Shown: positions 19,821-37,159 of the stretch, in pieces | Layout of the letters: the number at the start of each line of letters is the position of its first letter | Position numbering within the stretch: position 1 is the stretch's first letter | Origin: Acidobacteriota bacterium | GTDB lineage: Bacteria; Acidobacteriota; Terriglobia; Bryobacterales; Bryobacteraceae | Assembly: GCA_017304135.1 (NCBI GenBank) | Contig: JAFLBB010000026.1 | Span: 1 to 64,000 of the forward strand | Direction: 5' to 3' | DNA length: 64,000 nt | Translations under genes and position numbers: made by a program | The notes under the pieces: model-generated | Databases searched by the model: none | The model's input: the letters and a program-made list of their open reading frames with translations, nothing else | Told to the model about the DNA's origin: nothing

Positions 19821-21182
19821 ATGAGTTCCCTATCGCGACGCCACTTTCTTGGAACCATTCCCGCGGCCGCGGCGGCCCAAACTCAACCGGACCGTCCCAA
19901 TGTGCTCCTGATCATGGCCGACGACCTCGGCTTTGAGACGCTCAATTGCAACGGCGGCGCCTCCTACAAGACGCCCAACCTCGATCGCCTCGCCCGCGAA
20001 GGCGTCCGCTTCACCCATGCCTACGCGCAACCGCTCTGCACCCCCACGCGCGTCCAGTTGATGACCGGCCAGCACAATTTCCGCAACTGGAAGGGCTTCG
20101 GCCTGATCGATCCCAACGAGAAGACCTACGGCCACATGATGCAGCGCGCCGGTTACCGCACGGCCATCATGGGCAAGTGGCAGTTCTACAGCTACGAGTC
20201 AAAGGGATCGCCGCGCTACCGCACCGGCATGCGCCCCGAACAGTCGGGCTTTGACGAATACCTGCTCTGGCACGACCTCGACACCGAGGACAAGGGTTCG
20301 CGCTACGCCGAGCCTGTGCTCAACGAGAACGGAAAGAAGCGCACCGATACCAAGGGCAAATACGGCCCCGATCTCGAATTCGAGTTCCTCAAGAATTTCC
20401 TCGACCGAAACCGCCGCAATCCGTTCTTCGCTTATTACTCCATGACGCTCACGCACGGGCCGTTCAACCCCACGCCCAAGAGTGCCGATTGGGCCGCCGG
20501 CAACCGCCTGAAGGACGATCCGAAATACTACGCCGACATGGTGGAATACATGGACTTCACCATGGGCCAGATCATGGACCACCTGAACCGCACGGGCCTT
20601 GCGTCGAACACGCTGGTCATGTTCTACGCCGACAACGGCACTCCGCGCGAGATCACGGGATCGCGCATGGGCAGCCGCGTCGTTCCCGGCGGCAAGGGCC
20701 TTACCACCGATGCCGGCATGCACGTGCCGATGATCGCCCGCTGGCAGGGCGTCTCGGGAGCGGGCAAGGTATGCCCGGATCTGATCGACTCCACCGACTT
20801 TCTGCCGACCATCATGGACGCCACCGGCGCCAAGTGGTTCGATGGCCGCCCTCTCGACGGCCGCAGCTTCCTGCCGCAACTGCGCGGCCAGAAGGGCAAC
20901 CCGCGGCAGTGGGCGTTTTCGCATTTCGATCCGCACCCCGGCTGCAAGGTGAACTTCACACCCACGCGCCTCACCTGGGACCACCGCCACAAGCTCTATC
21001 TCGATGGGCGGCTCTTCGATCTCTCCCAGGACATCGACGAGAAGAATCCCATTCCGGCGGCCTCCACCGACGCCGCCCACCGCGCCGCGCGCAGGAAATT
21101 GCAAGCCGGCCTCGACGAGATGGCCCGCGTCATGCCGCCGAAGTTCAACAAGTTTGCCACCGACGGCCGCACGGCTTACTGA
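19821..21182 (+). CDS. Tat-signalled arylsulfatase-like enzyme
   Basis: Sulfatase of 453 residues, predicted to release sulfate from a sulfated carbohydrate or similar ester in the periplasm. The signal carries RRHFLG (residues 6-11). Metal ligands Asp34 and Asp35 lie in NVLLIMADDLGFE, and the formylglycine-precursor Cys73 lies in the signature LCTPTRVQLMTG. The motif with the second metal-ligand pair appears as FYADNGTPREI. A formylglycine-generating enzyme is not in the window. TACAGT ends 10 bases before the ATG. The last 7 bases overlap the converging gene 21176-21814. Confidence 0.92.
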   Translation: MSSLSRRHFLGTIPAAAAAQTQPDRPNVLLIMADDLGFETLNCNGGASYKTPNLDRLAREGVRFTHAYAQPLCTPTRVQLMTGQHNFRNWKGFGLIDPNEKTYGHMMQRAGYRTAIMGKWQFYSYESKGSPRYRTGMRPEQSGFDEYLLWHDLDTEDKGSRYAEPVLNENGKKRTDTKGKYGPDLEFEFLKNFLDRNRRNPFFAYYSMTLTHGPFNPTPKSADWAAGNRLKDDPKYYADMVEYMDFTMGQIMDHLNRTGLASNTLVMFYADNGTPREITGSRMGSRVVPGGKGLTTDAGMHVPMIARWQGVSGAGKVCPDLIDSTDFLPTIMDATGAKWFDGRPLDGRSFLPQLRGQKGNPRQWAFSHFDPHPGCKVNFTPTRLTWDHRHKLYLDGRLFDLSQDIDEKNPIPAASTDAAHRAARRKLQAGLDEMARVMPPKFNKFATDGRTAY

Positions 21183-21881: not shown

Positions 21882-24047
21882 ATGCACACGCGCCGCGACT
21901 TCCTCGCACAGACCGCGCTCGCCACCGCCACTGCCGCGCAAACGCCCTCCGCCGCGGCCCCCTGGTACAACCGCCCCATGCGATGGGCCCAGCTCACGCT
22001 CGTTGAAGACGACCCCGGCAACTACGACCCCAACTTCTGGCTCGACTATTTCCGGCGCACGCACTCCGATGCCGCTTGCCTCTCCGCCGGCGGCTGCGTC
22101 GCCTACTATCCGACGAAGGTTCCCCTGCACTACCGCAGCAAGTTCCTCGACGATCGCGATTCGTTCGGCGAACTCGTCGCCGGCTGCCGCAAGCTCGGCA
22201 TGAACGTCGTCGCCCGCACCGATCCGCATGCCGCCCATCAGGACGTCTACGATGCCCATCCCGATTGGATCGCCGTCGAAGCCAACGGTAAACCGCGCCG
22301 CCATTGGGCCGACCCCACGCTCTGGGTCACTTGCGGCCTCGGTCCCTACAACTTCGAGTTCATGACCGAAGTGACGCGCGAAATCATGACGCTCTATCGC
22401 GTCGACGGCATCTTCTCCAATCGCTGGGACGGCTCCGGCATGTGTTACTGCCGCCATTGCCAGCAGAACTTCCGCGCCTTCAGCGGCCTCGAACTGCCGC
22501 GCACCGAAGACCCGCGCCACGAAGCGCGCCGCCAGTACATCGTCTGGCGGCAGAAGCGCCTCTTCGATCTCTGGCATCTATGGGACGGCGAAATCAAGAA
22601 GATCAACCCCAACGCCGCATTCATCGCCAACGCCGGCGGCGGTGCGCTCAGCGATCTCGACATGAAGACCATCGGCGAGCTTGCGCCCACGCTCTTTGCC
22701 GACCGCCAGGCGCGCCGAGGCCTCATGCCCCCCTGGACCAATGGCAAGAACGGCAAGGAATACGGCGCCACACTCGGCAACAAGGCCATCGCCGGCATCT
22801 TCAGCATGGGCGTCGAAGAGCAATACCGCTGGAAGGACTCCGTGCAGGGCGCCGGCGAGATCCGCCTCTGGGTGGCCGACGGCATCGCTCACAACCTGCG
22901 CCCGTGGTTCACCAAGTTCAACGGCAAGGTGATTGACCACCGCTGGATCAAGGTGGTTGAAGACATCTACACCTGGCACCATCGCAACGAACGCTACCTT
23001 CGCAACGAACACTCGCTCGCCCGCGTGGCGCTGGTCTATTCGCAGCAGACGGCTTCTTTCTATGGTGGCGAAAGGGCGCGCGCGAAGGTGGAGGATCATG
23101 CCCTCGGCTATTATCAAGCGCTCGTCGAAGCGCGCGTGCCGTTCGACATGGTGCACGACCACTTGCTCGAACCTGCCCGCCTCTCGCCCTACCGCACGCT
23201 CATTCTGCCCAACATTGCCGCGCTTTCCGATGCCCAGTGCCGGCAGTTGACGCAATTCGTGGAGGCGGGTGGCAACCTCATCGCCACGCACGAAACCTCG
23301 CTCTACGACGAGTGGGGTCGCCCGCGCCGCGATTTCGGACTGGCGAATCTCTTTGGCGCACGCTACGAGGGGCGCGTCGAGCAGCGTGTCCAAAATTCCT
23401 ATCTCAACGTCGACAAGGATCCACGCTCAGGCCGGTTCCACCCACTCGTGCGCGGACTTGAAGACGCCACGCGCATCGTGAACGGCGCGGGTTGGGTTCA
23501 TGTCGCGCCCACCACGCCGCTCGATGCAGTGCCGCTTACGCTGGTTCCCTCCTACCCGGACCTGCCCATGGAGCAGGTCTTCCCGCGTGTGCCTCGCACG
23601 ACCACGCCGGGCGTCTACATGCGTCAGGTGGGCCGTGGTCGCGTTGTCTACTTTCCCTTCGATCTCGACCGCACCTTCTGGGAAGTGCTCGCACCCGACC
23701 ACGGCCTGCTGCTTCGCAACGCCCTCGCCTGGGCGCACAACGAACCGCAACCGCTCATCGTCGAAGGCAAGGGCGTGCTCGATGTCTCGCTCTGGCAGCA
23801 GAAGGACTCCCTCGCCGCGCATCTGGTGAATCTCACCAACCCGATGATGATGAAAGGGCCCGTGCGCGAGATCATTCCCTCGCCCCCGCAAACGGCCCGC
23901 ATCCGCCTGCCCGAGGGACGCCGCGCGCGGCGCGTGCAGTTCCTCGTGAGCGGCAAGCCCGCGCGGCATCGCATAGCCAATGGCGTTATCACCGTCGAGG
24001 TGCCTCCGCTCGGCGTCCATGAAGTGATTGCCGTCGATCTTGCCTAA
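21882..24047 (+). CDS. Tat-signalled glycoside-hydrolase-like protein (GHL6 type with beta-galactosidase trimerisation-like domain)
   Basis: A 721-residue protein. An RR signal (TRRDFLAQTALATATAAQ) is followed by a TIM-barrel-like domain (about residues 30-370) of the hypothetical-glycoside-hydrolase type; it contains VDGIFSNRWDGSGMCYCRHC, where the CxCxxC group may bind metal. A flavodoxin-like domain resembling the trimerisation domain of GH42 beta-galactosidases follows (about 390-590, TLILPNIAALSDAQCRQL, VEAGGNLIATHETSLYDEWG), then a C-terminal beta-domain. A substrate cannot be assigned. It is 9 bases upstream of a shorter paralogue and probably co-transcribed with it. Confidence 0.8.
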   Translation: MHTRRDFLAQTALATATAAQTPSAAAPWYNRPMRWAQLTLVEDDPGNYDPNFWLDYFRRTHSDAACLSAGGCVAYYPTKVPLHYRSKFLDDRDSFGELVAGCRKLGMNVVARTDPHAAHQDVYDAHPDWIAVEANGKPRRHWADPTLWVTCGLGPYNFEFMTEVTREIMTLYRVDGIFSNRWDGSGMCYCRHCQQNFRAFSGLELPRTEDPRHEARRQYIVWRQKRLFDLWHLWDGEIKKINPNAAFIANAGGGALSDLDMKTIGELAPTLFADRQARRGLMPPWTNGKNGKEYGATLGNKAIAGIFSMGVEEQYRWKDSVQGAGEIRLWVADGIAHNLRPWFTKFNGKVIDHRWIKVVEDIYTWHHRNERYLRNEHSLARVALVYSQQTASFYGGERARAKVEDHALGYYQALVEARVPFDMVHDHLLEPARLSPYRTLILPNIAALSDAQCRQLTQFVEAGGNLIATHETSLYDEWGRPRRDFGLANLFGARYEGRVEQRVQNSYLNVDKDPRSGRFHPLVRGLEDATRIVNGAGWVHVAPTTPLDAVPLTLVPSYPDLPMEQVFPRVPRTTTPGVYMRQVGRGRVVYFPFDLDRTFWEVLAPDHGLLLRNALAWAHNEPQPLIVEGKGVLDVSLWQQKDSLAAHLVNLTNPMMMKGPVREIIPSPPQTARIRLPEGRRARRVQFLVSGKPARHRIANGVITVEVPPLGVHEVIAVDLA

Positions 24048-24056
24048 GGAGCCGCC

Positions 24057-26033
24057 ATGCGCAACCGCCTCATTGCCGCTTTGCTCTGCCCCCTCGCTGT
24101 GTGCGCCCAGGAAGGCTGGTGGATGACCGAGCCGATCCGCTGGGTCCAAACCAATCTTCGCCAGGTGGACGCCACGCTCGATGCGGCACATCATGCGCAA
24201 CAGCTCGCCGATATGCGCGCCACCGTCTGCCTGATGGGCATGGGCGGCATTGCCGCCTACTATCCCACGGCGGCCGAATTTCACTACGCCAGCCCGCAAC
24301 TTCCTCCAGGCCGCGACATGTTTGGCGACTTCGTGCGCGAAGCCCACGCACGCAAGATCCGGGTCGTTGGCCGCTACGACCTCAGCAAGACGCGCAAAGA
24401 GGTGTTCGATGCCCATCCTGAGTGGTTTTTCCGCCAGCGCAACGGCGAGCCCGTCATCTACAACGGCCTCTATTCGACGTGCATCAACGGCGGCTACTAT
24501 CGCACGCAGGCCATGAAGATCCTCGCCGAAGGCCTCGAGAAGTACGACGTCGACGGCCTCTTCTTCAATATGTTCGGCAACCAGGCGCGCGACTACAGCG
24601 GCCGCTATGTCGGCCTCTGCCACTGCGACAACTGCCGCCGCCTCTACCGCGCGCAAACGGGCAAAGAGATCCCCGAGATGCCCGATGACGACTACCGCAA
24701 ATTCATGTTCACCTCGTCGCGCGAAGTGGCCGCCGCCATCGGCGCACTCATCCGTTCGAAGCGCCCGCGCGCCGGCTACTTCAACTACATCCAGGAACAC
24801 ACCGACGGCATCATGTCGGAATCGAACACGGCCATCGCTCGCCCGCTGCCGCTGTGGCCTTACTCGGCAAGCGATCGCGTGAACCGCGCCCGCAACAGCC
24901 AGCCGTCGAAAATGAGCGTGAATCTCAACATGCAGTTCGTTGACTACTGGTGGCGCTTTGCCACGGTCCCTTCGGGCGAGATCGCGTTGCGCTCCTGGCA
25001 AAGCATCGCTCACGGCGGTGCGCTCACCTTCGAAGTGAACGGCACGCTTGATCAACAGGACCGCCAGGCGCTCGAAACCGCCAAGCCCATCTTCCGCTGG
25101 GTGGCCGGGCACGAACAGTTCTACGCGGGCCAGTCGAGCGCCGCCCGCGTGCTGCTGCTCGGCGCGCCGGCAGGCACGGGCCGCACCTATAGCGAAGAGC
25201 CCTATCGCGGGGCGTTCCGGTTGCTGAGCGAAGAGCACATTCCTTTCGCCGTTTCCGACAACATGGATTGGCTCGGCAAACGCGCGTTCGATCTCGTCGT
25301 GGCCACCGATTGGGCGCCCGCCGAATTGCGCGGCTATGTCGAGGCCGGTGGCAACGTGTTACTGCTCTCGGCTGCCGCGCCGGAGTTCGACATCGCGCCG
25401 GTGGTGCGCACCACACCCGACCTTCGCGGCTACATCCGCATCCGCGACCACGCTTCCTTTCCCTCGCTTCGCGAAGCCGATCTTGTCATGCTCACGGGAC
25501 CGTTCACCGAAGTCAGTGCCTCGCCGGGGGCGCCCTCCGGCGCGCCGCTCACGCTCATCCCGCCCTCTCTCTTCGGTCCGCCAGAATTCGTGCACATCGA
25601 CATGAAGGACACAGATACGCCGGCCATCGTCACGCGCCAATTGGGGAAAGGAACCGTCACCTGGCTGCCGTGGAATCTTGCCGGTATGTATCAACGCCTC
25701 AGCCTGCCCGCGCACGCGGCGCTGTTCGGCGATCTTGTGCGTACGCTCCACCCGCGACGCCAGTTGGAAACCAACGCCCACCCGCTCGTTGAGATGTCGC
25801 TCATGCGCCAGAAGGGCCGCACACTGCTCCACCTGATCAACCTGAGCGGTCATTCGCAGACGGCCTACTTCGCGCCCGTGCCGATGAATGGTATCGAGGT
25901 GCGTCTCGAAGGCGCCTTCACCTCGGCCCGCGCGCAACGCACACCGGCGCGCCTCCCCATCAAGAGCGCCGCCGGCTACTCCACCTTCACCGTCCCGCGT
26001 CTGGCCGACTACGAACTCGTTGTTCTCGAATAG
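24057..26033 (+). CDS. secreted paralogue of the preceding glycoside-hydrolase-like protein
   Basis: A 658-residue protein with a Sec-type signal (MRNRLIAALLCPLAVCAQ) rather than the twin-arginine signal of its neighbour. It shares the same layout: barrel-like domain with IRWVQTNLRQVD, GGIAAYYPTAAEFHY and the Cys group GLCHCDNCRRLYRAQTGKEIP, then a trimerisation-like domain containing YVEAGGNVLLLSA, and a C-terminal beta-domain. TAAGGAG sits 5 bases before the ATG. The tandem pair looks like an old duplication with diverged export routes. The end lies only 3 bases from the end of the converging 26037-27275 gene, with no terminator between. Confidence 0.8.
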   Translation: MRNRLIAALLCPLAVCAQEGWWMTEPIRWVQTNLRQVDATLDAAHHAQQLADMRATVCLMGMGGIAAYYPTAAEFHYASPQLPPGRDMFGDFVREAHARKIRVVGRYDLSKTRKEVFDAHPEWFFRQRNGEPVIYNGLYSTCINGGYYRTQAMKILAEGLEKYDVDGLFFNMFGNQARDYSGRYVGLCHCDNCRRLYRAQTGKEIPEMPDDDYRKFMFTSSREVAAAIGALIRSKRPRAGYFNYIQEHTDGIMSESNTAIARPLPLWPYSASDRVNRARNSQPSKMSVNLNMQFVDYWWRFATVPSGEIALRSWQSIAHGGALTFEVNGTLDQQDRQALETAKPIFRWVAGHEQFYAGQSSAARVLLLGAPAGTGRTYSEEPYRGAFRLLSEEHIPFAVSDNMDWLGKRAFDLVVATDWAPAELRGYVEAGGNVLLLSAAAPEFDIAPVVRTTPDLRGYIRIRDHASFPSLREADLVMLTGPFTEVSASPGAPSGAPLTLIPPSLFGPPEFVHIDMKDTDTPAIVTRQLGKGTVTWLPWNLAGMYQRLSLPAHAALFGDLVRTLHPRRQLETNAHPLVEMSLMRQKGRTLLHLINLSGHSQTAYFAPVPMNGIEVRLEGAFTSARAQRTPARLPIKSAAGYSTFTVPRLADYELVVLE

Positions 26034-26036
26034 CCG

Positions 26037-27275
26037 CTACCGCTGCGCCGCGCCGCTGCGGCCCATGATCGGCCACACGTCCACTATCTGATCGCCCTTG
26101 GCGATGTAGTAGCGGTCGTAGCAGTTCGTGCTCATGTCGAGATTGCTGCAGTAGATCTCCAGCCGGTCGCCGACCTTCAACTCGCCGCCGCCGTCCTTCC
26201 AACGCAGAATGCCGTACTCGGCGCCCTGCCGGTCCACCTGCAGCCACGACATGCCCTTCACCTGATCCGTCGTCTGGATCATCGCCTTGTTGCCGTAATC
26301 GATGGTCACTTGCCCCGCATGATGCTTGCTGTCGACGGTCACCAGCACCGACATGGCGTTGTCAAAGTCGCTGTAGACCTGCTCGTCTGATTTCCCACCA
26401 ATGCGCCGGTAGATGGAATCCATGAACACATAGGAGCCGCACTCGAGCTCAGTGAGCCCAAGTTCGTGGTCCATGTTGTAGGTGCCCGTCGAGCCGCCGC
26501 TCACGATGCCCACCGGCAGCCCGGCCTTTTTGGCCAGCGCCACCGTTTCCTGAACGCCCGAGAGATCATCGGCCGATTTCTTTCGCCGCGCGGCGAAGCC
26601 CTTCGTATGCGAGGCGCCGCCCGAGTAGGCCATGAAACCTTCGAGCGCCATGTGCTTCGATGAGTGAATCTTCTGCGCCAACTCCAGCGCCGGTTTGCCG
26701 TTGGCGATGCCCTGCCGCGTCAGCCCTGCGTAGACAGCCACCGCCACGCGGCACTTCACCTTGGCCGCGCCCGCTGCCTCTTCCACCTGGTCGGCCACGC
26801 GCGGATCGTCGATCACAAACATAAACGTCGGATCGCGTTTCGACAGCGCCACTGCCCGCAGCAGGTTGTTCATGCTCGCGGGCTGCTTGGTCCACAGCAC
26901 GCCCTTGATGCCCGAGTTCGACATCAATTCGGACTCGGCAATCGTTGCCGTGGTCACACCAATCGCGCCCAGCGCCACCTGCCGCTTGGCCACGTCGACG
27001 CTCTTGTGCACCTTCACGTGCGGCCGCAGCAGAATCGGCGAGGCCTTCGCGCTCGTGGCCATCGTCCTCAGGTTCTTCTCGAAGAGGTCGATGTCCACCA
27101 CCATGCTCGGCGTGGGCAGCACGTCCTTCGTCATGCCGCGGAAGTCCTTCCGCGCGATGCGCTGCTCAAGCTCCGCGTACGGATACCCCTTTGCATCGGC
27201 GCGCGCCACGCGAGCGGCGGCCCCCATCGCGAGGCCCGTGGCCCCGGCGGCAATGAACTGTCGGCGTGAAGTCAT
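26037..27275 (-). CDS. Tat-signalled PLP-dependent alanine-racemase-fold protein (D-threonine aldolase / D-serine dehydratase-like)
   Basis: A 412-residue protein of the fold-type III PLP family. The signal is SRRQFIAAGATGLAMGAAA. The PLP-binding lysine is Lys88 in LRPHVKVHKS. The GGSTG phosphate-binding element is present (GIVSGGSTGTYN). Known relatives bind a metal through His-x-Cys or His-x-Asp near the C-terminus. Here the matching site reads SNLDMSTN, so His is replaced by Asn378 while Asp380 fits; the usual EEHG element also reads AEYG. It is the last gene of an operon with the DegT aminotransferase and the Gfo/Idh/MocA protein. Substrate and reaction are unknown. Confidence 0.85.
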   Translation of the reverse strand: MTSRRQFIAAGATGLAMGAAARVARADAKGYPYAELEQRIARKDFRGMTKDVLPTPSMVVDIDLFEKNLRTMATSAKASPILLRPHVKVHKSVDVAKRQVALGAIGVTTATIAESELMSNSGIKGVLWTKQPASMNNLLRAVALSKRDPTFMFVIDDPRVADQVEEAAGAAKVKCRVAVAVYAGLTRQGIANGKPALELAQKIHSSKHMALEGFMAYSGGASHTKGFAARRKKSADDLSGVQETVALAKKAGLPVGIVSGGSTGTYNMDHELGLTELECGSYVFMDSIYRRIGGKSDEQVYSDFDNAMSVLVTVDSKHHAGQVTIDYGNKAMIQTTDQVKGMSWLQVDRQGAEYGILRWKDGGGELKVGDRLEIYCSNLDMSTNCYDRYYIAKGDQIVDVWPIMGRSGAAQR

Positions 27276-27341
27276 GCGTCCACTCTCCTTGGTTCGTACA
27301 GGATACCGCCCCCAGGGTGGACGCTGCTCACCAGCCTCGCC

Positions 27342-28661
27342 TCAGGCCTTCAGCGCCGCCCCATGCACCTTGCGGAATGCCGCGATCACGTCGTCCGTAT
27401 CCCGCCTGGTGAATTTCGGATCCATGGCAACGCCGGCAAAACGGCTCAGGATGTCGAGCGTCTTCGGGCACGCCTCGGCCCCATAGCGGATCGCCTTGCC
27501 GCGCGGTGAGGTGAACGACGGCCATGCCGGATGCACTGTTGTCTTGCTCTCAATGTATGGCTGCACCGGCAGGATCACCGAGCCCGACGGCGGACGCGCC
27601 GGCACGTTCTCGGCCCGCATCAGCTCCATGAATCTGTCGCGCTGCCGTTGCGAGGCGAAGCCCGCGAACACAGCCGTGCCGATGTCGCCTTCCACATCGT
27701 TGCGCAGCCGCGTTGTGAGCCCCGGCAAATCGGCGATGCCCGCGTAGACCCGCGCCGCGTTCGCGCGCACCCCGCCCACGATCTTGTCCAACTTGCGCAA
27801 CTGCGCCAATAAGACGCCGCCGCTGAACTCATTCATGCGGAAGTTCGTCCCCACAAACGGGCTCAGTTGCGGCTTGCCCACCCACTGCTCATGCGGCGCG
27901 CGGAAGCCTCCCACATCGTGGAACCGCGCCGCGCGCTCGAGCAGCAGCGGATCGCTCGTCACCACCGCGCCGCCCTCGCCGGCCGTGATCGACTTGTTCA
28001 ATTGCAGGCTATAGATTCCGATATCGCCCATCGAGCCCAGCGGCTTGCCCTTGTAGCTGCCGCCCACGCTCTGTGCGCAATCCTCCAGCACCTTCACTTT
28101 GCGCCGCCGCGCCACTTCCAACACGCGGTCCATGTTGGCCGGCATCCCTTGCAGGTGCACCGCCATCACGGCTTTCGTGCGCGGCGTGATCTTGCGTTCC
28201 AAATCCTCAGGGTCGATGTCGAATGACTCGTCGATCTCGGCGAACACGGGCAGCGCCCCGGCCAGCACAATCGCCGCATAGCAGGAATGCCACGTCCAGG
28301 CCGGCAACACGACCTCATCGCCCGGCCCCACCTCAAGCGCTGCCATGGCGCACTGCAGCGCCGCCGTGCCTGAGGTCACCGCCAGCGCATACTTCGCTCC
28401 CATGCGCGCGGCGAACTCCTTCTCAAACGTGGCCACCTTGTCCGGCGCCTGGCGGCCCGTGCCATACCAGCGGAACGGCCGCCGCGTCTCCAGCACGTTC
28501 AGTAACTGCTCGCGCTCCTCGTCGCCATAGAACTGCGTGCCCCAATAGCCCGCATTCAATGGCTCGGTCCTCACCGGCGCGCCGCCTTCGGCCGCCAGCG
28601 CCGGCGCGGCGCTCAATCCCGCCGCCGCGCTTGCCACCACGAAGTGTCTGCGATTCACCAT
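27342..28661 (-). CDS. Tat-signalled DegT/DnrJ/EryC1-type aminotransferase
   Basis: A 439-residue PLP enzyme of the family that aminates keto-sugars. The catalytic lysine is in YSLQLNKSITAGEGGAV; the PLP-contact regions SGTAALQCAMAAL and ALPVFAEIDESFDIDPEDLE are typical. Unusually, the N-terminus is a twin-arginine signal (MVNRRHFVVASAAAGLSAAPALA), so the protein should leave the cytoplasm folded with its cofactor. ATG at 28659-28661 is chosen because GGGGAGGT lies 5 bases upstream; the longer frame adds no signal features. It is 13 bases downstream of the Gfo/Idh/MocA gene and 66 bases upstream of the alanine-racemase-fold gene. Confidence 0.88.
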   Translation of the reverse strand: MVNRRHFVVASAAAGLSAAPALAAEGGAPVRTEPLNAGYWGTQFYGDEEREQLLNVLETRRPFRWYGTGRQAPDKVATFEKEFAARMGAKYALAVTSGTAALQCAMAALEVGPGDEVVLPAWTWHSCYAAIVLAGALPVFAEIDESFDIDPEDLERKITPRTKAVMAVHLQGMPANMDRVLEVARRRKVKVLEDCAQSVGGSYKGKPLGSMGDIGIYSLQLNKSITAGEGGAVVTSDPLLLERAARFHDVGGFRAPHEQWVGKPQLSPFVGTNFRMNEFSGGVLLAQLRKLDKIVGGVRANAARVYAGIADLPGLTTRLRNDVEGDIGTAVFAGFASQRQRDRFMELMRAENVPARPPSGSVILPVQPYIESKTTVHPAWPSFTSPRGKAIRYGAEACPKTLDILSRFAGVAMDPKFTRRDTDDVIAAFRKVHGAALKA

Positions 28662-28674
28662 GACCCACCTCCCC

Positions 28675-29844
28675 TTACATATCGTTCCGGCCGTCATACG
28701 GCGTCGCTGACGCCATCATCTCGTCCCACGTCACCACGCGTTCGCGCGCCGCCGCCATGCGCCCCAGAATGCCCGTGTAGTTGGATTGCGCTGACTCGGC
28801 GCCGTTGTTCAACACCGGGTTTCCCGCTTTCACGGCCTGAATGAAGTCCTTGATGTTCTGGATCGCCCCGCCGGTGAATGTGTTGTCCTTCTCACTGCCA
28901 TTCCAGGGCTGCTCTCCGGTGATCCGCACAAAGCCGTTGTAATGCGCGTCGCATGTTCCGGCCGAGCCATACAACCGCATGCACAGATCGCTGTAGCCCT
29001 TGGTGAATTGCACGCTGCTGAAATCCACCTTCACGCCGCGGTCAAACCAATAGGTCACCTGGTAGACATCGGAGACGTCGCCCACTTTGCGCACCATCTG
29101 CCCGCAGGTGCCGATGGCCTTCAGCGGATGCCCCTTCAGATACCAGCAGCCGACGTCGAGCACGTGCACGTTCTGCTCCACGATGATGTCGCCCGAAAGC
29201 TTCTTCGAATGGAGCCACCCCTTCACCTCGGCCATCTTCGCGTCGAGTCCAGTGGTTTCCGGCGCGCGGTTCCGCCCAGCGTGATAGTAGATGTGGCCGA
29301 ACACCGGGTCGCCGATACCGCCGTTGTGCACGCGCGAAACAGCTTCCTTAAACACGTCGCGGTTGCGCGTCTGGAAGTCGACCAGGAAGTTCAGCTTCTT
29401 CTTCGCCGCCAGTTCGGAAGCCTGCACGAAACGCTTGGTGCCAGGCACATCGCTGGCCACAGGCTTGGCGCAGTAGACGTGCTTGCCCGCCTCCACCGCC
29501 GCCATCGCATGGTCCGGGTGAAAGTAGGGCGGCGACTCGATCACCACCGCATCCACATTCTGCTTCACCATCTCGCGGAAGCCGTCAAGCCCCACGAACG
29601 AGCGTTTCTCGCTCACCCCGAACTTCTCGCGAAACGCAGCCAGCGGCGGTTCGAACGCATCGGCAATCGCCGTCACCTTGGCGCCCGTCTGCTCCAGAAA
29701 GTGTCCCGTGATCCACACGCCGCGATTGCCGCAGCCGATCAACCCGAGCTCCGGCGTCGAGTTGGCCTGCGAGCCAAAGGCGGTTTCGGGCCGCAATATC
29801 AGAAGGCCTGCTCCTGTTTCCAAAAATGCCCGGCGATTGCTCAT
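28675..29844 (-). CDS. Tat-signalled Gfo/Idh/MocA-family oxidoreductase
   Basis: A 389-residue NAD(P)-dependent oxidoreductase family member with an RR signal (MSNRRAFLETGAGLLIL). The Rossmann start is GLIGCGNRGVWITG and the AGKHVYCAKPVASDV segment corresponds to the family EKP motif, here with Ala in place of Glu. Family members oxidise sugars or act on glycosides using tightly bound NAD. GGGAGAG lies 5 bases before ATG 29842-29844. It is the first gene of the minus-strand operon with the aminotransferase and the alanine-racemase-fold protein, and is divergent from the DUF362 operon. Confidence 0.88.
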   Translation of the reverse strand: MSNRRAFLETGAGLLILRPETAFGSQANSTPELGLIGCGNRGVWITGHFLEQTGAKVTAIADAFEPPLAAFREKFGVSEKRSFVGLDGFREMVKQNVDAVVIESPPYFHPDHAMAAVEAGKHVYCAKPVASDVPGTKRFVQASELAAKKKLNFLVDFQTRNRDVFKEAVSRVHNGGIGDPVFGHIYYHAGRNRAPETTGLDAKMAEVKGWLHSKKLSGDIIVEQNVHVLDVGCWYLKGHPLKAIGTCGQMVRKVGDVSDVYQVTYWFDRGVKVDFSSVQFTKGYSDLCMRLYGSAGTCDAHYNGFVRITGEQPWNGSEKDNTFTGGAIQNIKDFIQAVKAGNPVLNNGAESAQSNYTGILGRMAAARERVVTWDEMMASATPYDGRNDM

Positions 29845-30004
29845 GAAGGCTCTCCCTCGCCGCGCGCGGCGCGGCTTCAGTATGTTCAGCATCACCATAC
29901 AGCCATCGCGCCGGGAAGGGAAGCGGGCTCAAGTTGTACGAAATCGTCAAGTAAGCCCGCGCAAATCCGCACAAAAGGGCATGGGATTTCAGCGCGCGCA
30001 ACTA

Positions 30005-30010
30005 TATACT
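30005..30010 (+). promoter_or_regulatory. -10-like box TATACT for the DUF362 operon
   Basis: TATACT ends 9 bases before the ATG at 30020 and no Shine-Dalgarno lies between, so transcription should start within a few bases of the codon. The 175-base divergent region (29845-30019) should also hold the promoter of the Gfo/Idh/MocA operon on the minus strand; no clear box was found for it. Confidence 0.45.
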
Positions 30011-30019
30011 GAACTTGCC

Positions 30020-31042
30020 ATGCAGGCCTCCCCTCCGGCCCCCGCGAGCCGCCCCAAGGAGTCGATGCTCGCCTCCGCCACATACGACTCCACTCCCCGC
30101 GTCGGTCTTGTTCTCTCCTCGTTCAAAGAAGGGATGGAACACGACGGCACCGCCCTCCCCGGCCTTGCCCAACCCGCCGCCACCGATCAACCCATCACCC
30201 CTGCGCAGATGTCCGCTCTGCTCACGCGCGCCCAGGAACTGGCCATGCGCGGCAATCCACGCCGTGGCGGCCGAAGCGGACCAGGTTCAGAGGACTGGAT
30301 CGTCTTCCTCGTCACCCGCACCGAGCAGATCGCCACTGACCCGCTCCTGCTCTCCCGCCTGCTCGATCAGTATGCCACCCAGAAGCGCGGTAAGCGATTC
30401 ACCGTCGCCGCCTCGGGCGCGCCGCCCTCGGGCTATGAGGCCATGCTCGGCGAACTGGCCAAGCGTTATCCCACCATCCTGTTTCAATACGCTGACCTCG
30501 CTAGCGAGCCGTACCTGCAAGTTCCCGCCACGCGCCGCACCTTTGCCGCCAAGAACCCCAACTCCGAATATGCGATTCCCAAGGTGATCCGCGAGTGTGA
30601 CCGGCTGATTTCGGTTGCTCCGATGCAGACCTCGCCGCTCACCGGCGTCTCGCTCACCATCGGCAACTACTGGGCGCTGGCGCCGGAAAGCGTCTACGGT
30701 GCGCGGCACGAAAAGCTCTTTGCCATGGGCGATCCCGTCGATCTGCTCACCGATCTCTACTTGCACCACCCGGCCGATTACGCCATCCTCGGCGGCCCCG
30801 TGCATCGCGACGCCTCGGGCGAGATTCGCCACAACATCGTCATCGCCGGAACCAACGCGCTTTCCGTCGATGCCATCGGCGCGGCCGTCATGGGCTTCGA
30901 TGCCCTCAAGCTTCCTCTGCTCGACAAACTCGAACTCCGCGGCTTCGGCGTTCGCGATCCCGATCTCATCTGGACCCGCGGCAACGAACTCGACGAAGCC
31001 CGCAAACCGTTCCGCAAACCGCAGGGTTGGGAGAAATCATGA
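30020..31042 (+). CDS. DUF362-type protein, first of three
   Basis: A 340-residue protein without a clear export signal. The C-terminal half matches DUF362: CDRLISVAPMQTSPLTGVSL, HHPADYAILGGPVHRD, AGTNALSVDAIGAAVMGFDAL and WTRGNELDEARKPFRKPQGW. The longer frame upstream lacks a start signal; ATG at 30020 is preferred for the TATACT box just before it. Its TGA overlaps the next ATG (ATGA). DUF362 proteins have no settled biochemical role. Unlike its two neighbours it seems to stay in the cytoplasm. Confidence 0.75.
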   Translation: MQASPPAPASRPKESMLASATYDSTPRVGLVLSSFKEGMEHDGTALPGLAQPAATDQPITPAQMSALLTRAQELAMRGNPRRGGRSGPGSEDWIVFLVTRTEQIATDPLLLSRLLDQYATQKRGKRFTVAASGAPPSGYEAMLGELAKRYPTILFQYADLASEPYLQVPATRRTFAAKNPNSEYAIPKVIRECDRLISVAPMQTSPLTGVSLTIGNYWALAPESVYGARHEKLFAMGDPVDLLTDLYLHHPADYAILGGPVHRDASGEIRHNIVIAGTNALSVDAIGAAVMGFDALKLPLLDKLELRGFGVRDPDLIWTRGNELDEARKPFRKPQGWEKS

Positions 31043-32634
31043 ATCGCCGCCACTTCCTGATGAGTTCCGCCGCCGTCCCGATGGCCGCGCCGCTGCTGGC
31101 CGCGCCCGATACGCGCGCCCGGCTTGGCCTGGTCCGCTCCACGCACGCCAAGCTCCGCCAACCCGCGCCGCTCGACGACGGGCTCACCTATGAGCAGGTG
31201 CGCGACATGGTCCACTCGGCCATCCGCTATGGCGCGCCGCAAGCCGGATCGCTCGAAAAGAAGATCAAACCTGGCTCGTGGGTCGTGATCAAGCCGAACA
31301 TCGTCTTTCTACGCCCGCATCCCGGGTATGCGCCAGGCGACATCACCGATTTCCGCGTCACCCGCGCCGTGCTCGAATACGTTGCCACGCATTCGCAGGC
31401 CGCCCGCATCACCATCGCCGAGGGCGGCACCTATCGCAACCACAAGGACAAGGCCGAGGACAACGTCGTCACCCAGGACGGCCGCCGCGTCAACGCCTAC
31501 GATTTCGATTGGGGACCGGATGAGTTCCCCGGCTTCAACGGTTCGGTTGGCTCAATGTTGAAAGAGATGTCGCGCCTCCATCCAGGTAAGCGCTTCGACT
31601 TCGTTGACCTCTCCTACGACGCCGTGCGCGGCCCCGATGGCCAGTTCCAGCGCATCGTCGTTCCCAAGTCCTCAAACGGCATCGGCGCCTTTGGCGGCCG
31701 CGCCGATTACTTCGTCACCAATACGATCACCAAGTGCGACTTCCTGATTTCCGTTCCCGTCATGAAGGTCCACCTGCAGTGCGGCATCACAGCCAGCCTG
31801 AAGAACTACGTCGGCACCGCGCCGCGCCAGGCCTACGCCACGCCGGGCCTGTTCCACAACGCCAACCTTCATTCGGAACATTCCGCCGGTGACCGCATCG
31901 ATCCGTTCATCGTCGACCTCGCCGCCTTCCATCCGCCCGACTTCTGCGTCGTCGATGGCATTCGCGGCCTGCAAGCCCAGGAGCATTCCGCCCACCGCGC
32001 CGATCAGACCGTGCGCTCCAATCTGGTCTTCGCCACCGAGGACCCCATTGCCGCCGATGCCATGGCCGCCCGCCTGCTCGGCTTCAACCCGTACGACATT
32101 GAACACCTCCACATGGCCGCCCGCCGCGGCATGGGTACGCTGGAGTTGAGCCGCATCGACCACCGCGGCGATGAGCCTGACCGCTCCACGCGCAAGTGGG
32201 AAAAGCCGCGCCAGTGGTACGGCCGCTGCAATCGCGAATGGACGCTCTCGGCCGGCTCGGCGGCGCCGCGCGCCCATTCCGCGCCGTACGATACGCTCGA
32301 CCTGCCCGCGGCCACAGGCGTGGCGCCTTCGAATAGCACAAGCTATCGCGCGGCCGTCAACGTCCAGTCGCAGGGCCACCACAACGGCTACCTCTGGCTC
32401 GGCCTGCGCGGACGCCTCACCGCGCGTGTGAACGGCGAAACGGTCGCCACCTCCGAGTCGCAGACCCGCTACCGCACAGGCCAGTTCCAATTCCCCGTCG
32501 CCCTTCGCCCCGGCATGAATCGTGTCGAGTTCGATGTGCAACCCCTCGCCGGCCAGGCCAAACTCAGCGTCCTGCTTACCAACTCTCGCAACGATGGCGA
32601 CTCCATCGATGGCATTCGTTGGGTGAAGGCGTAA
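31039..32634 (+). CDS. Tat-signalled DUF362 protein, second of three
   Basis: A 531-residue protein with signal NRRHFLMSSAAVPMAAPLLAA. The DUF362 domain spans about residues 70-370: KPGSWVVIKPNIVFLRP, the DLSYDAVRGPDGQFQRI segment, LISVPVMKVHLQCGITASLKNYVG and DGIRGLQAQEH. A C-terminal beta-sandwich of about 120 residues follows (GYLWLGLRGRLTARVNGET). The start overlaps the previous stop and the stop shares one base with the next start (taATG), so all three genes are coupled. It closely resembles the next protein over its whole length. Confidence 0.82.
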   Translation: MNRRHFLMSSAAVPMAAPLLAAPDTRARLGLVRSTHAKLRQPAPLDDGLTYEQVRDMVHSAIRYGAPQAGSLEKKIKPGSWVVIKPNIVFLRPHPGYAPGDITDFRVTRAVLEYVATHSQAARITIAEGGTYRNHKDKAEDNVVTQDGRRVNAYDFDWGPDEFPGFNGSVGSMLKEMSRLHPGKRFDFVDLSYDAVRGPDGQFQRIVVPKSSNGIGAFGGRADYFVTNTITKCDFLISVPVMKVHLQCGITASLKNYVGTAPRQAYATPGLFHNANLHSEHSAGDRIDPFIVDLAAFHPPDFCVVDGIRGLQAQEHSAHRADQTVRSNLVFATEDPIAADAMAARLLGFNPYDIEHLHMAARRGMGTLELSRIDHRGDEPDRSTRKWEKPRQWYGRCNREWTLSAGSAAPRAHSAPYDTLDLPAATGVAPSNSTSYRAAVNVQSQGHHNGYLWLGLRGRLTARVNGETVATSESQTRYRTGQFQFPVALRPGMNRVEFDVQPLAGQAKLSVLLTNSRNDGDSIDGIRWVKA

Positions 32635-34238
32635 TGAAGCTCCAGCGACGTCAGTTCCTCGCCGCCACGGCGATGGCCGCGGTCCCGTTGCCCGCAGCTG
32701 AAGCCGCCAAGACGCGCCTCGGCCTGGTCGCCTCCACGCACGCCGCTCTTCGCCAGCCCGCGCCGCTCGACGCCACGCTCACGCTCGATCAAGTCCGCGC
32801 CATGGTCTTCCGCGCCATCTCGCTCGGCTCACCGCACGCCGGCTCGCTCGAAGAGAAGATCAAGCCCGGCTCCTGGGTCGTCATCAAGCCGAACATCGTC
32901 GCCCTGCGCCCACGCCCCACGTATCGCCTTGGCGACATCACCGACTTCCGCGTCACCCAGGCCGTTCTCGAATACGTCGCCGCCCGCTCGCGCGCCGGAC
33001 GCATCACGATTGCCGAAGGCGGCTCCTACCGCCGGCCGAACGACCCGGCCGAAGACAACGCCACCATCCAGGACGGCCGCCGCGTCAGCGCCTACGACTT
33101 CGATTGGGGACCCGATGAGTTCCCCGGCTTCCATGGCTCCATCCAATCGATGCTCGCCGTGCTGGCCCGCCGCCATCCCGACAAGAAGTTCGACTACATC
33201 GACCTCTCCTACGACTGCGTGCGCGACCCCGCCGGCCGCTTCCGCCGCATCGTTGTCCCCAAGTCGGCCAACGGCACAGGCGCGTTCGGTGGCCGCCCGG
33301 ATTACTTCGTCACCAACACCATCCTCAACTGCGACTTCCTCATCACCGTGCCCGTCATGAAGTGTCACCTCCAGTGCGGCATCACGGCCAGCCTCAAGAA
33401 CTACGTCGGCACGGCCCCGCGCGAGGCTTACAGCCTGCCCGGCATCTTTTCCAATCACAACCTCCATGCCGAACACTCCGCTGGTGGACGCATCGACCCC
33501 TTCATCGTCGACCTCGCCGCCTTCCATCCGCCCGACTACTGCGTCGTCGACGGCATCCGCGGCTTGCAATCGCAGGAGCACGGCAACGGCAGGCCCGACC
33601 AGATGATGCAATCCAATCTCGTCCTTGCCGGCGAAGATCCCGTCGCCGCCGACTCGCTTGTGGCCCAGCTGCTCGGCTACAACACGCACGACATGGAGTT
33701 CCTCCACATGGCCGCGCGCCGCGGCATGGGCACAATGGATGCCGCCCGCATGGACGTGCGCGGCGACGACGCCGACCGCCACATGCGCCGCTGGGAACGC
33801 CCGCGCCACTGGTATGGCCGCTGCAACCGCGACTGGCTGCTTCAGGACGCCAAGGGCCACTGGACGCGCACCGAAGCCCGTTTTGACACGCTCGATCTCG
33901 TCGAAGCCACCGGCCGCAAACCCGCGCCAGGCACGGTCTACAATGCCGCCGCGCAGTTTGACTCTCCCGGCCACGCCCGCGGACTGCTCTGGCTGGGTGC
34001 GCGCGGCGAGGTGAGCGTCCGCATCAACGGCGAAGCCGTGGCCTCATTCACCGCCGCCACCAGCTATCGCGTTGGCCAGTATCAGTACCCCATCACGGCG
34101 CGCCCTGGAGCCAATCGCATCGAGATCACCCTCGCTCCGTTGGGCGGCAAGGCCCTGCTCGGCCTGCTTGTCACCGGCCGCTCCAACGACGGCGGCACGC
34201 TTGCCGGCATGCGCTGGACCACGCCCAGCGCCGCTTAG
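32634..34238 (+). CDS. Tat-signalled DUF362 protein, third of three
   Basis: A 534-residue tandem paralogue of the preceding protein with signal QRRQFLAATAMAAVPLPAAE. The same blocks recur: KPGSWVVIKPNIVALRP, RFRRIVVPKSANGTGAFGG, LITVPVMKCHLQCGITASL and DGIRGLQSQEH, then the C-terminal sandwich (GLLWLGARGEVSVRINGEA). Metal-type residues such as the MKxHLQCG group are kept in both copies, so both are probably active. It converges on the btuC gene, overlapping by 4 bases (TTAG). Confidence 0.82.
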   Translation: MKLQRRQFLAATAMAAVPLPAAEAAKTRLGLVASTHAALRQPAPLDATLTLDQVRAMVFRAISLGSPHAGSLEEKIKPGSWVVIKPNIVALRPRPTYRLGDITDFRVTQAVLEYVAARSRAGRITIAEGGSYRRPNDPAEDNATIQDGRRVSAYDFDWGPDEFPGFHGSIQSMLAVLARRHPDKKFDYIDLSYDCVRDPAGRFRRIVVPKSANGTGAFGGRPDYFVTNTILNCDFLITVPVMKCHLQCGITASLKNYVGTAPREAYSLPGIFSNHNLHAEHSAGGRIDPFIVDLAAFHPPDYCVVDGIRGLQSQEHGNGRPDQMMQSNLVLAGEDPVAADSLVAQLLGYNTHDMEFLHMAARRGMGTMDAARMDVRGDDADRHMRRWERPRHWYGRCNRDWLLQDAKGHWTRTEARFDTLDLVEATGRKPAPGTVYNAAAQFDSPGHARGLLWLGARGEVSVRINGEAVASFTAATSYRVGQYQYPITARPGANRIEITLAPLGGKALLGLLVTGRSNDGGTLAGMRWTTPSAA

Positions 34239-35248
34239 CGCGACCAGAGAATCCACACAAAGAACGGCCCGCCCAACAGCGCCGTGGCAACGCCCACCGG
34301 TATCTCCACCGGCGCCAGCACGCTGCGCGAGATCGTGTCACACACCACCAGGAACGCCCCGCCGCCAAAGATCGACGCGGGCAACAGCAAGCGGTAATCG
34401 GGCCCCACGATGCGCCGCAGCAGGTGCGGCACAATCAAGCCCACGAACGCGATCGGCCCCGTCACCGCCGTCGTTGTCCCCACCAACACCGTGCCGGCGA
34501 TGAAGCCGCGCAGCGTCACGCTGCGGCAGTCCACGCCCCGCCCCGCCGCCCACGCCTCGCCATAGGAGATCACGTTCAACACCCGCGCCAGCCGCAACAC
34601 CCAGATGTTCACCGGCACGATCACCAGCGCCAGCAGCGCAAGCACCGGATACTCCACCGCCGCGATGCCTCCCATCAGCCAGTGCGTGATTTGGAACGCC
34701 TTCGTGATGCCCGCCAGGCTGTGCAGCAGCAGGATCAACGCCGAGCAGATGCCATTCACCGCAATGCCCGTCAATAGCAGCGTGAACGCCGAGAAGCGCT
34801 TGTGCGAACGGCTCAATGCCGCCACCAGTGCGATCACGGCCCCCGCGCCCGCCAGGGCCGAGATCCACACCACCGGGAACCACGACGTCTCGCTGGGGAA
34901 GAACGCAATCGCCACCACCGCGCCCAACGCGGATGCCGCCGTCACGCCCAGGCTCGATGGTGTCGCCAGCGCATCGCGCAACAGTGCTTGAAACATCGCG
35001 CCAGAACCGGAGAGCGCCGCTCCGGCGAGCAGAGCCAGCAGCGCCCGCGGCAGCCGAAGGTTGATCAAAATAGGCCAATCCGGCGCTTGCCCCGCCCACA
35101 CCCTCCCGTAGTCCAGGCCCGAGCCGCCCACCAGCGGACACACCGCCACGCTCACCGCCGCCGCCAGCAGCGACAGCACAAACACGGTGCGCGCGCGAGC
35201 GCGAAGGTCAGGGGATGCCGGCGCAGTGGCCCCCAGTTCAGTGGCCAT
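34235..35248 (-). CDS. btuC: vitamin B12 ABC transporter permease (FecCD/BtuC family)
   Basis: Inner-membrane permease of 337 residues with about ten hydrophobic helices. Family signatures are LPRALLALLAGAALSGSGAMFQALLRDALATPSSLGV, here covering the first helices, and GPIAFVGLIVPHLLRRIVGPDYRLLLPASIFGG near the coupling helix. ATG at 35246-35248 overlaps the end of btuD by 11 bases. It is the third gene of the riboswitch-controlled set btuF-btuD-btuC. Iron-siderophore permeases are homologous, but the cobalamin riboswitch upstream argues for B12 or a cobinamide. Confidence 0.92.
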   Translation of the reverse strand: MATELGATAPASPDLRARARTVFVLSLLAAAVSVAVCPLVGGSGLDYGRVWAGQAPDWPILINLRLPRALLALLAGAALSGSGAMFQALLRDALATPSSLGVTAASALGAVVAIAFFPSETSWFPVVWISALAGAGAVIALVAALSRSHKRFSAFTLLLTGIAVNGICSALILLLHSLAGITKAFQITHWLMGGIAAVEYPVLALLALVIVPVNIWVLRLARVLNVISYGEAWAAGRGVDCRSVTLRGFIAGTVLVGTTTAVTGPIAFVGLIVPHLLRRIVGPDYRLLLPASIFGGGAFLVVCDTISRSVLAPVEIPVGVATALLGGPFFVWILWSR

Positions 35249-36008
35249 AACCCAGAAACACCCGCCCTTCTCCATTCACATACCGGTGAAAGGGCACATG
35301 GAACACGCGCTCCAACAATTCCGGCTCCAGCGCCGCATCGGCCGCACCGTCGGCTGCCAGCTTCCCGTGATGCAACACCCACACCCGGTCGGCATGCCGC
35401 GCCGCCAGCGCCAGATGATGCGTCACCACCAGCACCAGCCGGCCCATGTCACGCAATTCGCCCAACAGCTTCCACAACTGCGCCTGATTCTCCGGATCCA
35501 GATGCGCGCTTGGCTCATCCAGCAGCAACACCGGCGACTGCTGGCACAACGCCGCCGCCAGCAACACCCGCTGCTTCTCGCCCCCGCTCAACGAATCGAA
35601 CCGCCGCCGGCGAAACTCCTCCAGCCTCATGCGCGCGATGGCCTGCTCCATCGCCTCATGGTCCTCTTCGTTCTCATACAGCCCGCGCCCATAGGGAATG
35701 CGGCCCGTCAGCACCACCTCTTCCACCGTGAAGGGAATCCCCGACGGCGTCTGCTGCGGCACGTGGGCCACCATGCGGCACACCTCATCGCGGCCGGCGC
35801 GATTCACATCCAAGCCGTTCACCAGACACCGGCCTGCCTCTGGTCGCTTCAGGCCCGCCACCACATCCAGCAGCGTCGACTTCCCGGCCCCATTGGGACC
35901 CACCACCGCCACCAGCGCCGCCTCCCTGGCCTCCACGCTGATGCCGTCCAACACCGCCGGCGCGCCCGGGTAGCGGAAGCTCACATCCACCAATCGCAGC
36001 AGGCTCAT
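35238..36008 (-). CDS. btuD: vitamin B12 ABC transporter ATP-binding protein
   Basis: A 256-residue ATPase subunit driving uptake through the permease. Walker A is GPNGAGKST (about residues 38-46), the ABC signature is LSGGEKQR, Walker B is PVLLLDEPSAHLD and the switch histidine is in VVTHHL. The ATG overlaps the btuF stop (ATGA). Operon position after the cobalamin riboswitch indicates a B12-type substrate. Confidence 0.93.
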   Translation of the reverse strand: MSLLRLVDVSFRYPGAPAVLDGISVEAREAALVAVVGPNGAGKSTLLDVVAGLKRPEAGRCLVNGLDVNRAGRDEVCRMVAHVPQQTPSGIPFTVEEVVLTGRIPYGRGLYENEEDHEAMEQAIARMRLEEFRRRRFDSLSGGEKQRVLLAAALCQQSPVLLLDEPSAHLDPENQAQLWKLLGELRDMGRLVLVVTHHLALAARHADRVWVLHHGKLAADGAADAALEPELLERVFHVPFHRYVNGEGRVFLGYGH

Positions 36009-36913
36009 CGTCCCGGCGCCTTGCTCAACATTGCCGCGAACGCCTCGGCGGCTTCCACCACGCGCGGTCCAGGCACAACGAAGATGTCATCGGCCACGGC
36101 GAACACCGTCTTCTGCTTCACGGCGCGCACCACCGGCTGGCCTTCCCACAACCGCACCACCGCGCGCTTGTGTTCCTCGCTCACACCCTCGGTTGCCGTC
36201 ATGTCGCCCATGTCCACAATCACGTCCGGATCCAGCCGGATCACGCCTTCCAGTGAAATCTGCGGATAGGCCACGTGGGAGTCGTCGAGCACGTTGCGTC
36301 CCCCGGCGATGCGCATCAACTCGTTCAAATACGACCCGCTGCCCACCGCCATCATGCCGTCCAGCCGTCCCGGCGTCCGTCCCACCACAAACAGCAGCGT
36401 CCGCCGCGGCCGGCCCTTCACGCGTTCGGCAATCGCCCCCAGCCGCGCGCGCAACTCGCCTTCGAGCCTCGCTCCCTCGCGCGCCAGACCCAACGCCGCG
36501 CCCACCTGCTTCACCGAAGCCATCGTGTCTTCGAGCGTCGTGTTGCGCAGCGTGAGAACGCGGATGCCCATCGCCGTCAGTTGGCCCGCCGCCTGCCGTT
36601 GCTCGGTGTGCAACAACACCAGGCCGGGCTTCAGCCGCGCGATGGCTTCCACGTTCGGGTCCAGGTAATTGCCGATCTTCGGCAGCCGGTTCACTTCAGG
36701 CGGATAGTGACAATAGTTGGAGACCGCCGCCAACCGCTTCCCCGCACCCAAGGCAAAGACGGTCTCAGTGAAACTCGGCGCCGTCGACACCACCGTCGCC
36801 GGTTGCGCCATCGCCCCTGACGCGCTCAGCAGCCACGCCACGACCACCCCGGCCCTCATGGCCGCACTTCGGCCCAAGCCGTTGTCTCTCTCTCGGATCG
36901 TGCGCAATGGCAT
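36005..36913 (-). CDS. btuF: vitamin B12 ABC transporter substrate-binding protein
   Basis: Periplasmic binding protein of 302 residues with a signal sequence ending near residue 36 (VVVAWLLSASGAMAQ). The two-lobed BtuF/FepB fold is seen in VVSTAPSFTETVFALGAG, VSNYCHYPPEVNRLPKIG and LKPGLVLLHTEQRQ. ATG at 36911-36913 is preferred for AGGAGG and GAGGGA upstream; ATG at residue 19 is an alternative that shortens the signal. It is the first gene after the cobalamin riboswitch and probably controlled at translation start, since the riboswitch ends about 50 bases before it. Confidence 0.92.
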   Translation of the reverse strand: MPLRTIRERDNGLGRSAAMRAGVVVAWLLSASGAMAQPATVVSTAPSFTETVFALGAGKRLAAVSNYCHYPPEVNRLPKIGNYLDPNVEAIARLKPGLVLLHTEQRQAAGQLTAMGIRVLTLRNTTLEDTMASVKQVGAALGLAREGARLEGELRARLGAIAERVKGRPRRTLLFVVGRTPGRLDGMMAVGSGSYLNELMRIAGGRNVLDDSHVAYPQISLEGVIRLDPDVIVDMGDMTATEGVSEEHKRAVVRLWEGQPVVRAVKQKTVFAVADDIFVVPGPRVVEAAEAFAAMLSKAPGR

Positions 36914-36959
36914 TCCCTCTGCCCCTCCTTCGAGAGCAAAGTTGAGTTCGGCTGTGCGC

Positions 36960-37125
36960 CGCTCCCAGGCAGGTCTTCGGACTCATGGGCTTCCTACCAA
37001 CCGCGACTTCCCGGCTTTCCCCGCCAGTGTCGTGTGCGGCCTTCGTTCCCAATTACCGCTGCGGGACAGTCCCGGATTCGCGCCGGGTTCCCTTTTCAAC
37101 GCTCCGTCGCCGGGGCGTACCTGAG
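36960..37125 (-). promoter_or_regulatory. cobalamin riboswitch
   Basis: The minus strand carries the B12 box as AGTCCGAAGACCTGCC (complement of 36968-36983). Upstream of it, in the expected order, are a GGGAA element, the paired arm CCCGGCGCGAATCCGGG, CTGTCCCGCAGCGGTAA and the GACACTGGC segment. This is the full layout of an adenosylcobalamin-responsive aptamer. It lies directly ahead of btuF and should lower btuFDC expression when B12 is abundant. No T run follows the B12 box, which favours control of ribosome access. Confidence 0.93.
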
Positions 37126-37159
37126 AAGTTTCGAGCTTAGCAGATTGCGCCGCGCACCA

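Follow-up and report, generated by a model that had tools for sequence, protein, structure and literature searches.

A probably lineage-specific cluster of predicted Tat-exported cofactor enzymes in a Bryobacterales genome and a D-threonine aldolase-like clade with an altered metal site

Do six adjoining genes of an Acidobacteriota genome, five of them with twin-arginine (Tat) signals, encode one periplasmic pathway, or separately exported enzymes gathered in one place? The genes lie in the window, the whole stretch of 64,000 nucleotides analysed. The earlier note on this DNA had described a minus-strand trio of Gfo/Idh/MocA oxidoreductase (Gfo), DegT-type aminotransferase (DegT) and PLP protein genes, divergent from three coupled DUF362 genes and next to two glycoside-hydrolase-like proteins and a sulfatase. 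The strands, families and coordinates of the six genes were as described, and the neighbours were present by Pfam matches, the two glycoside-hydrolase-like proteins being of the GHL6 type (Table 1).

Table 1. Position, strand and family matches of the six genes and their neighbours in the window.
Feature	Position	Strand	Pfam or Rfam match
Tat-signalled PLP protein, D-threonine aldolase / BhcC fold (DSD1-like)	26037..27275	-	PF01168 + PF14031
Tat-signalled DegT/DnrJ/EryC1/StrS aminotransferase	27342..28661	-	PF01041, 268 bits
Tat-signalled Gfo/Idh/MocA oxidoreductase	28675..29844	-	PF01408 + PF22725
DUF362 no. 1, short form, without Tat signal	30020..31042	+	PF04015, 25.9 bits
DUF362 no. 2, Tat-signalled	31039..32634	+	PF04015, 91.7 bits
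DUF362 no. 3, Tat-signalled	32634..34238	+	PF04015, 88.5 bits
Neighbour: Tat-signalled GHL6 / Glyco_hydro_42M protein (GHL6a)	21882..24047	+	PF14871, PF08532
Neighbour: GHL6-like protein, Sec-type signal, N-terminus MRNRLIAALLCPLAVCAQ	24057..26033	+	PF14871
Neighbour: sulfatase	19902..21182	+	PF00884, 155.9 bits
Neighbours: btuC, btuD and btuF-like B12 uptake genes	34235..36913	-	
Cobalamin riboswitch ahead of the btu genes	36951..37139	-	Rfam RF00174, 115.4 bits

The two Pfam domains of the PLP protein were Ala_racemase_N and D-ser_dehydrat. The likely start codons of DegT and Gfo were the ATGs at 28661 and 29844, respectively, with a further in-frame ATG upstream of Gfo at 29898. The genes of the minus-strand trio were separated by gaps of 66 bases (PLP to DegT) and 13 bases (DegT to Gfo), while the stop and start codons of the three DUF362 genes overlapped by a few bases each. 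All three DUF362 proteins passed the Pfam gathering score of 24, and the sulfatase had a Tat signal (MSSLSRRHFLG) upstream of its called start. None of the six proteins matched the anti-phage defence models of PADLOC, and sigma-70 promoters and terminators were no more frequent in the region than in shuffles. Elsewhere the window contained an RR-signalled molybdopterin oxidoreductase domain protein (Oxidored_molyb, MsrP-like; 38957-39622, minus strand), a ThuA-family protein with RR close to its start (MTTRRNALAALAAAFASRAAAA; 11846-12676, plus strand), and small plus-strand genes at 53289-54380, where 53289-53621 overlaps 53593-54039, both without a Pfam match, and 54069-54380 is the third.

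Tat signals were seen on the proteins for which they had been proposed, namely Gfo, DegT, PLP and two of the three DUF362 proteins, with none on DUF362 no. 1. The segments were MTSRRQFIAAG (PLP), MVNRRHFVVAS (DegT), MSNRRAFLETG (Gfo), MNRRHFLMSSA (DUF362 no. 2), and MKLQRRQFLAAT (DUF362 no. 3), and a (S/T/N)RRxF-type motif with a hydrophobic stretch, short in Gfo, was present in these five of the six proteins. The neighbouring GHL6 protein at 21882 also carried an RR signal (MHTRRDFLAQ), and a tatC gene was found in the window genome. The RR pair was unchanged across orthologues of PLP (46/46), DegT (27/27), and Gfo (25/25). Outside the RR pair, the mean identity of the signal to that of the window protein was 31% for PLP, 38% for DegT, and 49% for Gfo, against 72%, 67%, and 54%, respectively, for the mature parts. 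Invariant arginines between divergent flanks are strong evidence, at the level of sequence, for a maintained Tat signal in PLP and DegT; for Gfo, RR conservation is weaker evidence, since its N-terminal region as such is almost as well conserved as the mature part. At residues ~14-30 of the Gfo orthologues, the segment LKPETVFGSQANS after the hydrophobic core was unusually conserved for the end of a signal peptide and possibly belongs to the mature protein as an arm.

The predicted export of the enzymes, folded and with cofactor, is supported by the invariant RR pair, by tatC, and by known precedents. It is very improbable that the RR segments are unused for export and that the enzymes remain cytoplasmic. 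The case for the signals is one of sequence, and the hydrophobic core of Gfo is short and broken by Arg, Pro and Glu; yet the RR pair stays invariant although its flanks diverge, hydrophobic regions are present in the PLP, DegT and Tat-signalled DUF362 proteins, and a PLP paralogue of the same genome (L256) carries no signal whatever.

In a strict screen of a 400-kb sample of the window genome, 29 of 292 genes (10%) had Tat-like signals. At this rate five signalled genes in six have a chance of ~5e-5 under independence, for genes that are not independent and a cluster that was picked by eye; the run is unusual, but eye-picked. Owing to its short hydrophobic core, the signal of the window Gfo escaped the strict screen. 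The window genome held 60 Gfo/Idh/MocA matches, and RR signals were present among the best 30 of these in 12 proteins by the screen and in ~17 by eye, so a Tat-signalled Gfo is ordinary in this genome. Another member of the DegT family in this genome, L180 on contig C138, also carried an RR signal (MSMKRRTFAGTLTAASAASLSAIPAPA); at E 1e-60 it was not among the relatives recovered for the window DegT.

The cofactor sites of all three enzymes were intact. In DegT, whose nearest solved relative was KdnA (5k8b), the PLP lysine was in place (SLQLNKSITAGEGG), and this Lys and the RR were invariant among orthologues. An alignment of 25 orthologues showed the Rossmann motif of Gfo intact (LGLIGCGNRG), with the catalytic Lys in AKP and the catalytic His in EQNVHVLD; the Glu of the EKP motif was Ala throughout the orthologue group. 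A literature search on Tat-exported Gfo/Idh or DegT proteins in Acidobacteria found nothing relevant.

The novelty of the locus rests on the clade of the PLP protein. Its relatives in the PDB were 6qkb, 7dib, and 4v15, and its model (pLDDT 86) matched BhcC and the D-threonine aldolases with Z of 45-46 and an rmsd of ~2 over 362-367 residues. It scored 217 bits against the BhcC equivalog NF045642, for which the cut-off is 690. The earlier proposal of a sugar isomerisation does not suit this protein, because the D-threonine aldolase / 3-hydroxyaspartate aldolase fold belongs to an amino-acid enzyme family. In 4v15, Lys59 is the PLP lysine, His193 the base, and His347 and Asp349 the metal ligands (PMC4401734). 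Lys59, Tyr187, Arg157, and His193 of 4v15 corresponded to Lys88 (the PLP lysine), Tyr217, Arg187, and His223 of the window PLP protein, all invariant in orthologues. The metal site was incomplete: His347 was replaced by Asn378, while Asp349 was kept as Asp380, which was also invariant.

The residue at the metal-His position of the 48 clade members was Asn in 44, Thr in 1, Val in 1, and His in 2, and all 19 D-threonine aldolase-family sequences compared from outside the clade kept the His. The substituted-His clade had full support (100/100) and a long branch in the tree, and within it the DEHG motif was changed to AEYG. All members with a complete N-terminus carried RR. Two further members, from another family of the class, had Asn and Ser at the position, and the clade was rare outside the order (1 other in 297 genomes from the phylum, at the threshold used). 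Two paralogues in the window genome differed from the clade protein in having canonical metal sites: L255 (contig C64) combined an RR signal with a PHCD site, and the signal-less L256 (contig C135) had a PHID site. A search of viral contigs for homologues of the PLP protein found none.

We infer that the PLP protein would be a periplasmic enzyme whose reaction does without the canonical metal site. A further reading, to which we give somewhat less than an even chance, is that the Bryobacterales possess a periplasmic, Tat-exported D-threonine aldolase branch that has given up its catalytic metal site (His to Asn) and converts amino acids outside the cytoplasm by PLP chemistry without a metal, beside the metal-type exported paralogue of the same cell. 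Loss of the metal His in 46 of 48 members and in two more from another family, together with the change from DEHG to AEYG, would also suit a catalytically dead clade that now serves as a periplasmic binding or sensing protein. We consider such a loss of catalysis unlikely, as the PLP lysine, Tyr217, Arg187, His223, and Asp380 are all invariant, which is unexpected for a dead enzyme, and as PvdN, a Tat-exported PLP enzyme, performs unusual periplasmic chemistry (PMC6206403).

On the opposite strand, DUF362 no. 2 and no. 3 were 65% identical. The model of no. 3, built from three window sequences, had a core pLDDT of 45 and was usable at the C-terminal beta-sandwich (~residues 399-534), which resembled the PA14/CBM35 ancillary domains of glycoside hydrolases in Foldseek. 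Because the model is good at this sandwich only, carbohydrate binding by no. 3 is offered as a suggestion. No. 2 consisted of the DUF362 core and the same C-terminal region, by alignment to no. 3; a sequence search for solved relatives of no. 3 gave none that were significant. The coupling of a short DUF362 gene to a long Tat-signalled one, or the facing of the two, was recurrent as a module. Of a dozen genomes of the order, about half contained such a pair (L215-L226), its two genes oriented alike in some and oppositely in others.

Orthologues were found among 150 genomes of the order for PLP (48), DegT (46), Gfo (44), and the long DUF362 (12), with E limits of 1e-90 for DegT, 1e-90 for Gfo, and 1e-60 for the long DUF362, and of ~380 bits plus one partial hit for PLP. 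In the annotated loci compared (PLP 36, DegT 20, DUF362 12, and Gfo 8), the neighbours differed from genome to genome, and contig positions in the 150 genomes gave the same picture, with the genes apart; since the contigs of many relatives are short, some neighbours were possibly missed. The earlier note had set the same gene order in other Bryobacterales as its check, and this order was not conserved at the PLP, DegT, Gfo or DUF362 loci. A conserved operon was rejected, each gene having unrelated surroundings elsewhere in the order.

Outside the window, the sole adjacent pair was Gfo-PLP, which occurred only in a genome of the window's own genus (G108 = L054) and in L040, which closely resembles it. 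Both had the order btuF-btuD-btuC-Gfo-PLP on one strand, with Gfo directly downstream of btuC, and this locus lacked DegT, the three DUF362 genes, both GHL6 genes, and the sulfatase gene. Orthologues of DegT, the long DUF362, and GHL6a were not found in the G108 genome at the limits used. In the window, the DUF362 trio lies between the btu genes and Gfo/PLP. As Gfo and PLP come after btuC and are read in the same direction in L040 and L054, B12 may at one time have controlled them. The closest relatives of the window proteins came from different sources, at 87% for PLP (a genome of another family; L010 / L039), 72% for DegT (another genus), and 75% for GHL6a (a third genus), as would be expected of a mosaic. 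The identity of PLP to proteins of the window's own genus was 83-85%, and horizontal transfer of PLP is suggested because its closest relative lies outside its own family and above the own-genus identity.

At genus level, both DegT and Gfo were present in 19 genera, where 10.4 were expected (p=1.1e-5). Odds ratios for co-occurrence with DegT were 15 for Gfo, 10 for GHL6a, and 3.2 for a control Tat-Gfo, a protein from elsewhere in the window genome. Co-occurrence of PLP was null with both DegT (p=0.59) and Gfo (p=0.11). A functional link between DegT and Gfo without gene linkage is possible; shared lifestyle suffices for their co-occurrence, because DegT shows co-occurrence with the control Tat-Gfo and with GHL6a as well. 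The joint periplasmic sugar-amination pathway that the earlier note had proposed was not supported: the neighbourhood is not conserved, the sister genomes lack DegT and DUF362 at their locus, and PLP does not co-occur with its supposed partners.

A narrower periplasmic route, newly assembled in this species, can be drawn for two of the enzymes. Gfo with bound NAD(P) would make the keto form of a sugar or cyclitol, DegT would aminate it with glutamate, and 2-oxoglutarate would re-oxidise the bound NADH. The WbpB/WbpE pair of 3-amino-sugar synthesis, in which bound NADH is re-oxidised by 2-oxoglutarate, is the model for such a route. It would suit the co-directional, closely spaced genes and the excess of shared genera, the DegT matches, which include WbpE and inosose aminotransferases, and the best NCBIfam match of Gfo, an inositol 2-dehydrogenase model, which scored far under its cut-off. 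Against it, DegT and Gfo are adjacent nowhere else, the sister genomes have Gfo-PLP without DegT, and the co-occurrence of the control Tat-Gfo and GHL6a with DegT leaves shared lifestyle as an explanation. We regard this amination route as improbable.

These genes lie at unrelated loci in relatives, and a local gathering is therefore the most likely explanation, not a pathway. The locus is probably a recent, lineage-specific clustering of independently Tat-exported enzymes in a Tat-rich genome, with separate activities. The 13- and 66-base spacing suggests that the trio is co-transcribed in the window, which counts against separate activities. Under the clustering explanation, Gfo, DegT, and the PLP protein would fold and take up their NAD(P) or PLP before leaving the cytoplasm; with their RR pairs invariant and their cofactor sites intact, the loaded enzymes would cross via TatC and act in the periplasm. 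Gfo would oxidise a sugar or cyclitol with its bound cofactor, DegT would transaminate a keto-sugar, and the substrate of the PLP protein would be a D-amino acid, beta-hydroxy or other, handled by a chemistry that leaves the canonical His/Asp metal site unused. The DUF362 pair would be a module of its own, its Tat-signalled member bearing a carbohydrate-binding-like domain. What the locus indicates is that, in the Bryobacterales, mostly cytoplasmic families of PLP- and NAD-enzymes include established branches with Tat signals. The PLP clade is one named branch, its active site altered in a defined and testable way, and a cluster of exported genes in a single genome is no evidence of a pathway.

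Among known systems, the D-threonine aldolases (4v15, 7dib) and the 3-hydroxyaspartate aldolase BhcC (6qkb) share fold, Lys, Tyr, Arg, and base His with the window PLP protein, which differs in its Asn378 and RR signal. KdnA (5k8b) and WbpE are matched by the window DegT over the full length of the family and in the catalytic lysine, the RR signal being that of the window DegT. KdnA and WbpE are cytoplasmic and act on nucleotide-linked or free keto-sugars. Zymomonas GFOR is Tat-exported and binds its cofactor before export, according to Halbig et al. (1999) as cited in a passage of PMC7317946. The window Gfo is like GFOR in superfamily and RR signal and unlike it in the weak sequence match (38 bits) and in having AKP for EKP. 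PvdN and PtaA of Pseudomonas pyoverdine maturation are PLP enzymes exported by Tat, folded with cofactor (PMC6206403). The window PLP proteins are likened to them by cofactor and Tat signal; they are of the DegT type and the alanine-racemase fold type, and no link to pyoverdine was seen in the window. The DUF362 family belongs to clan CL0471, as does the LarA/DUF2088 lactate racemase domain (PMC11770544), and the window proteins are set apart from the family by the Tat signals of two of the three and by the PA14/CBM35-like domain of no. 3.
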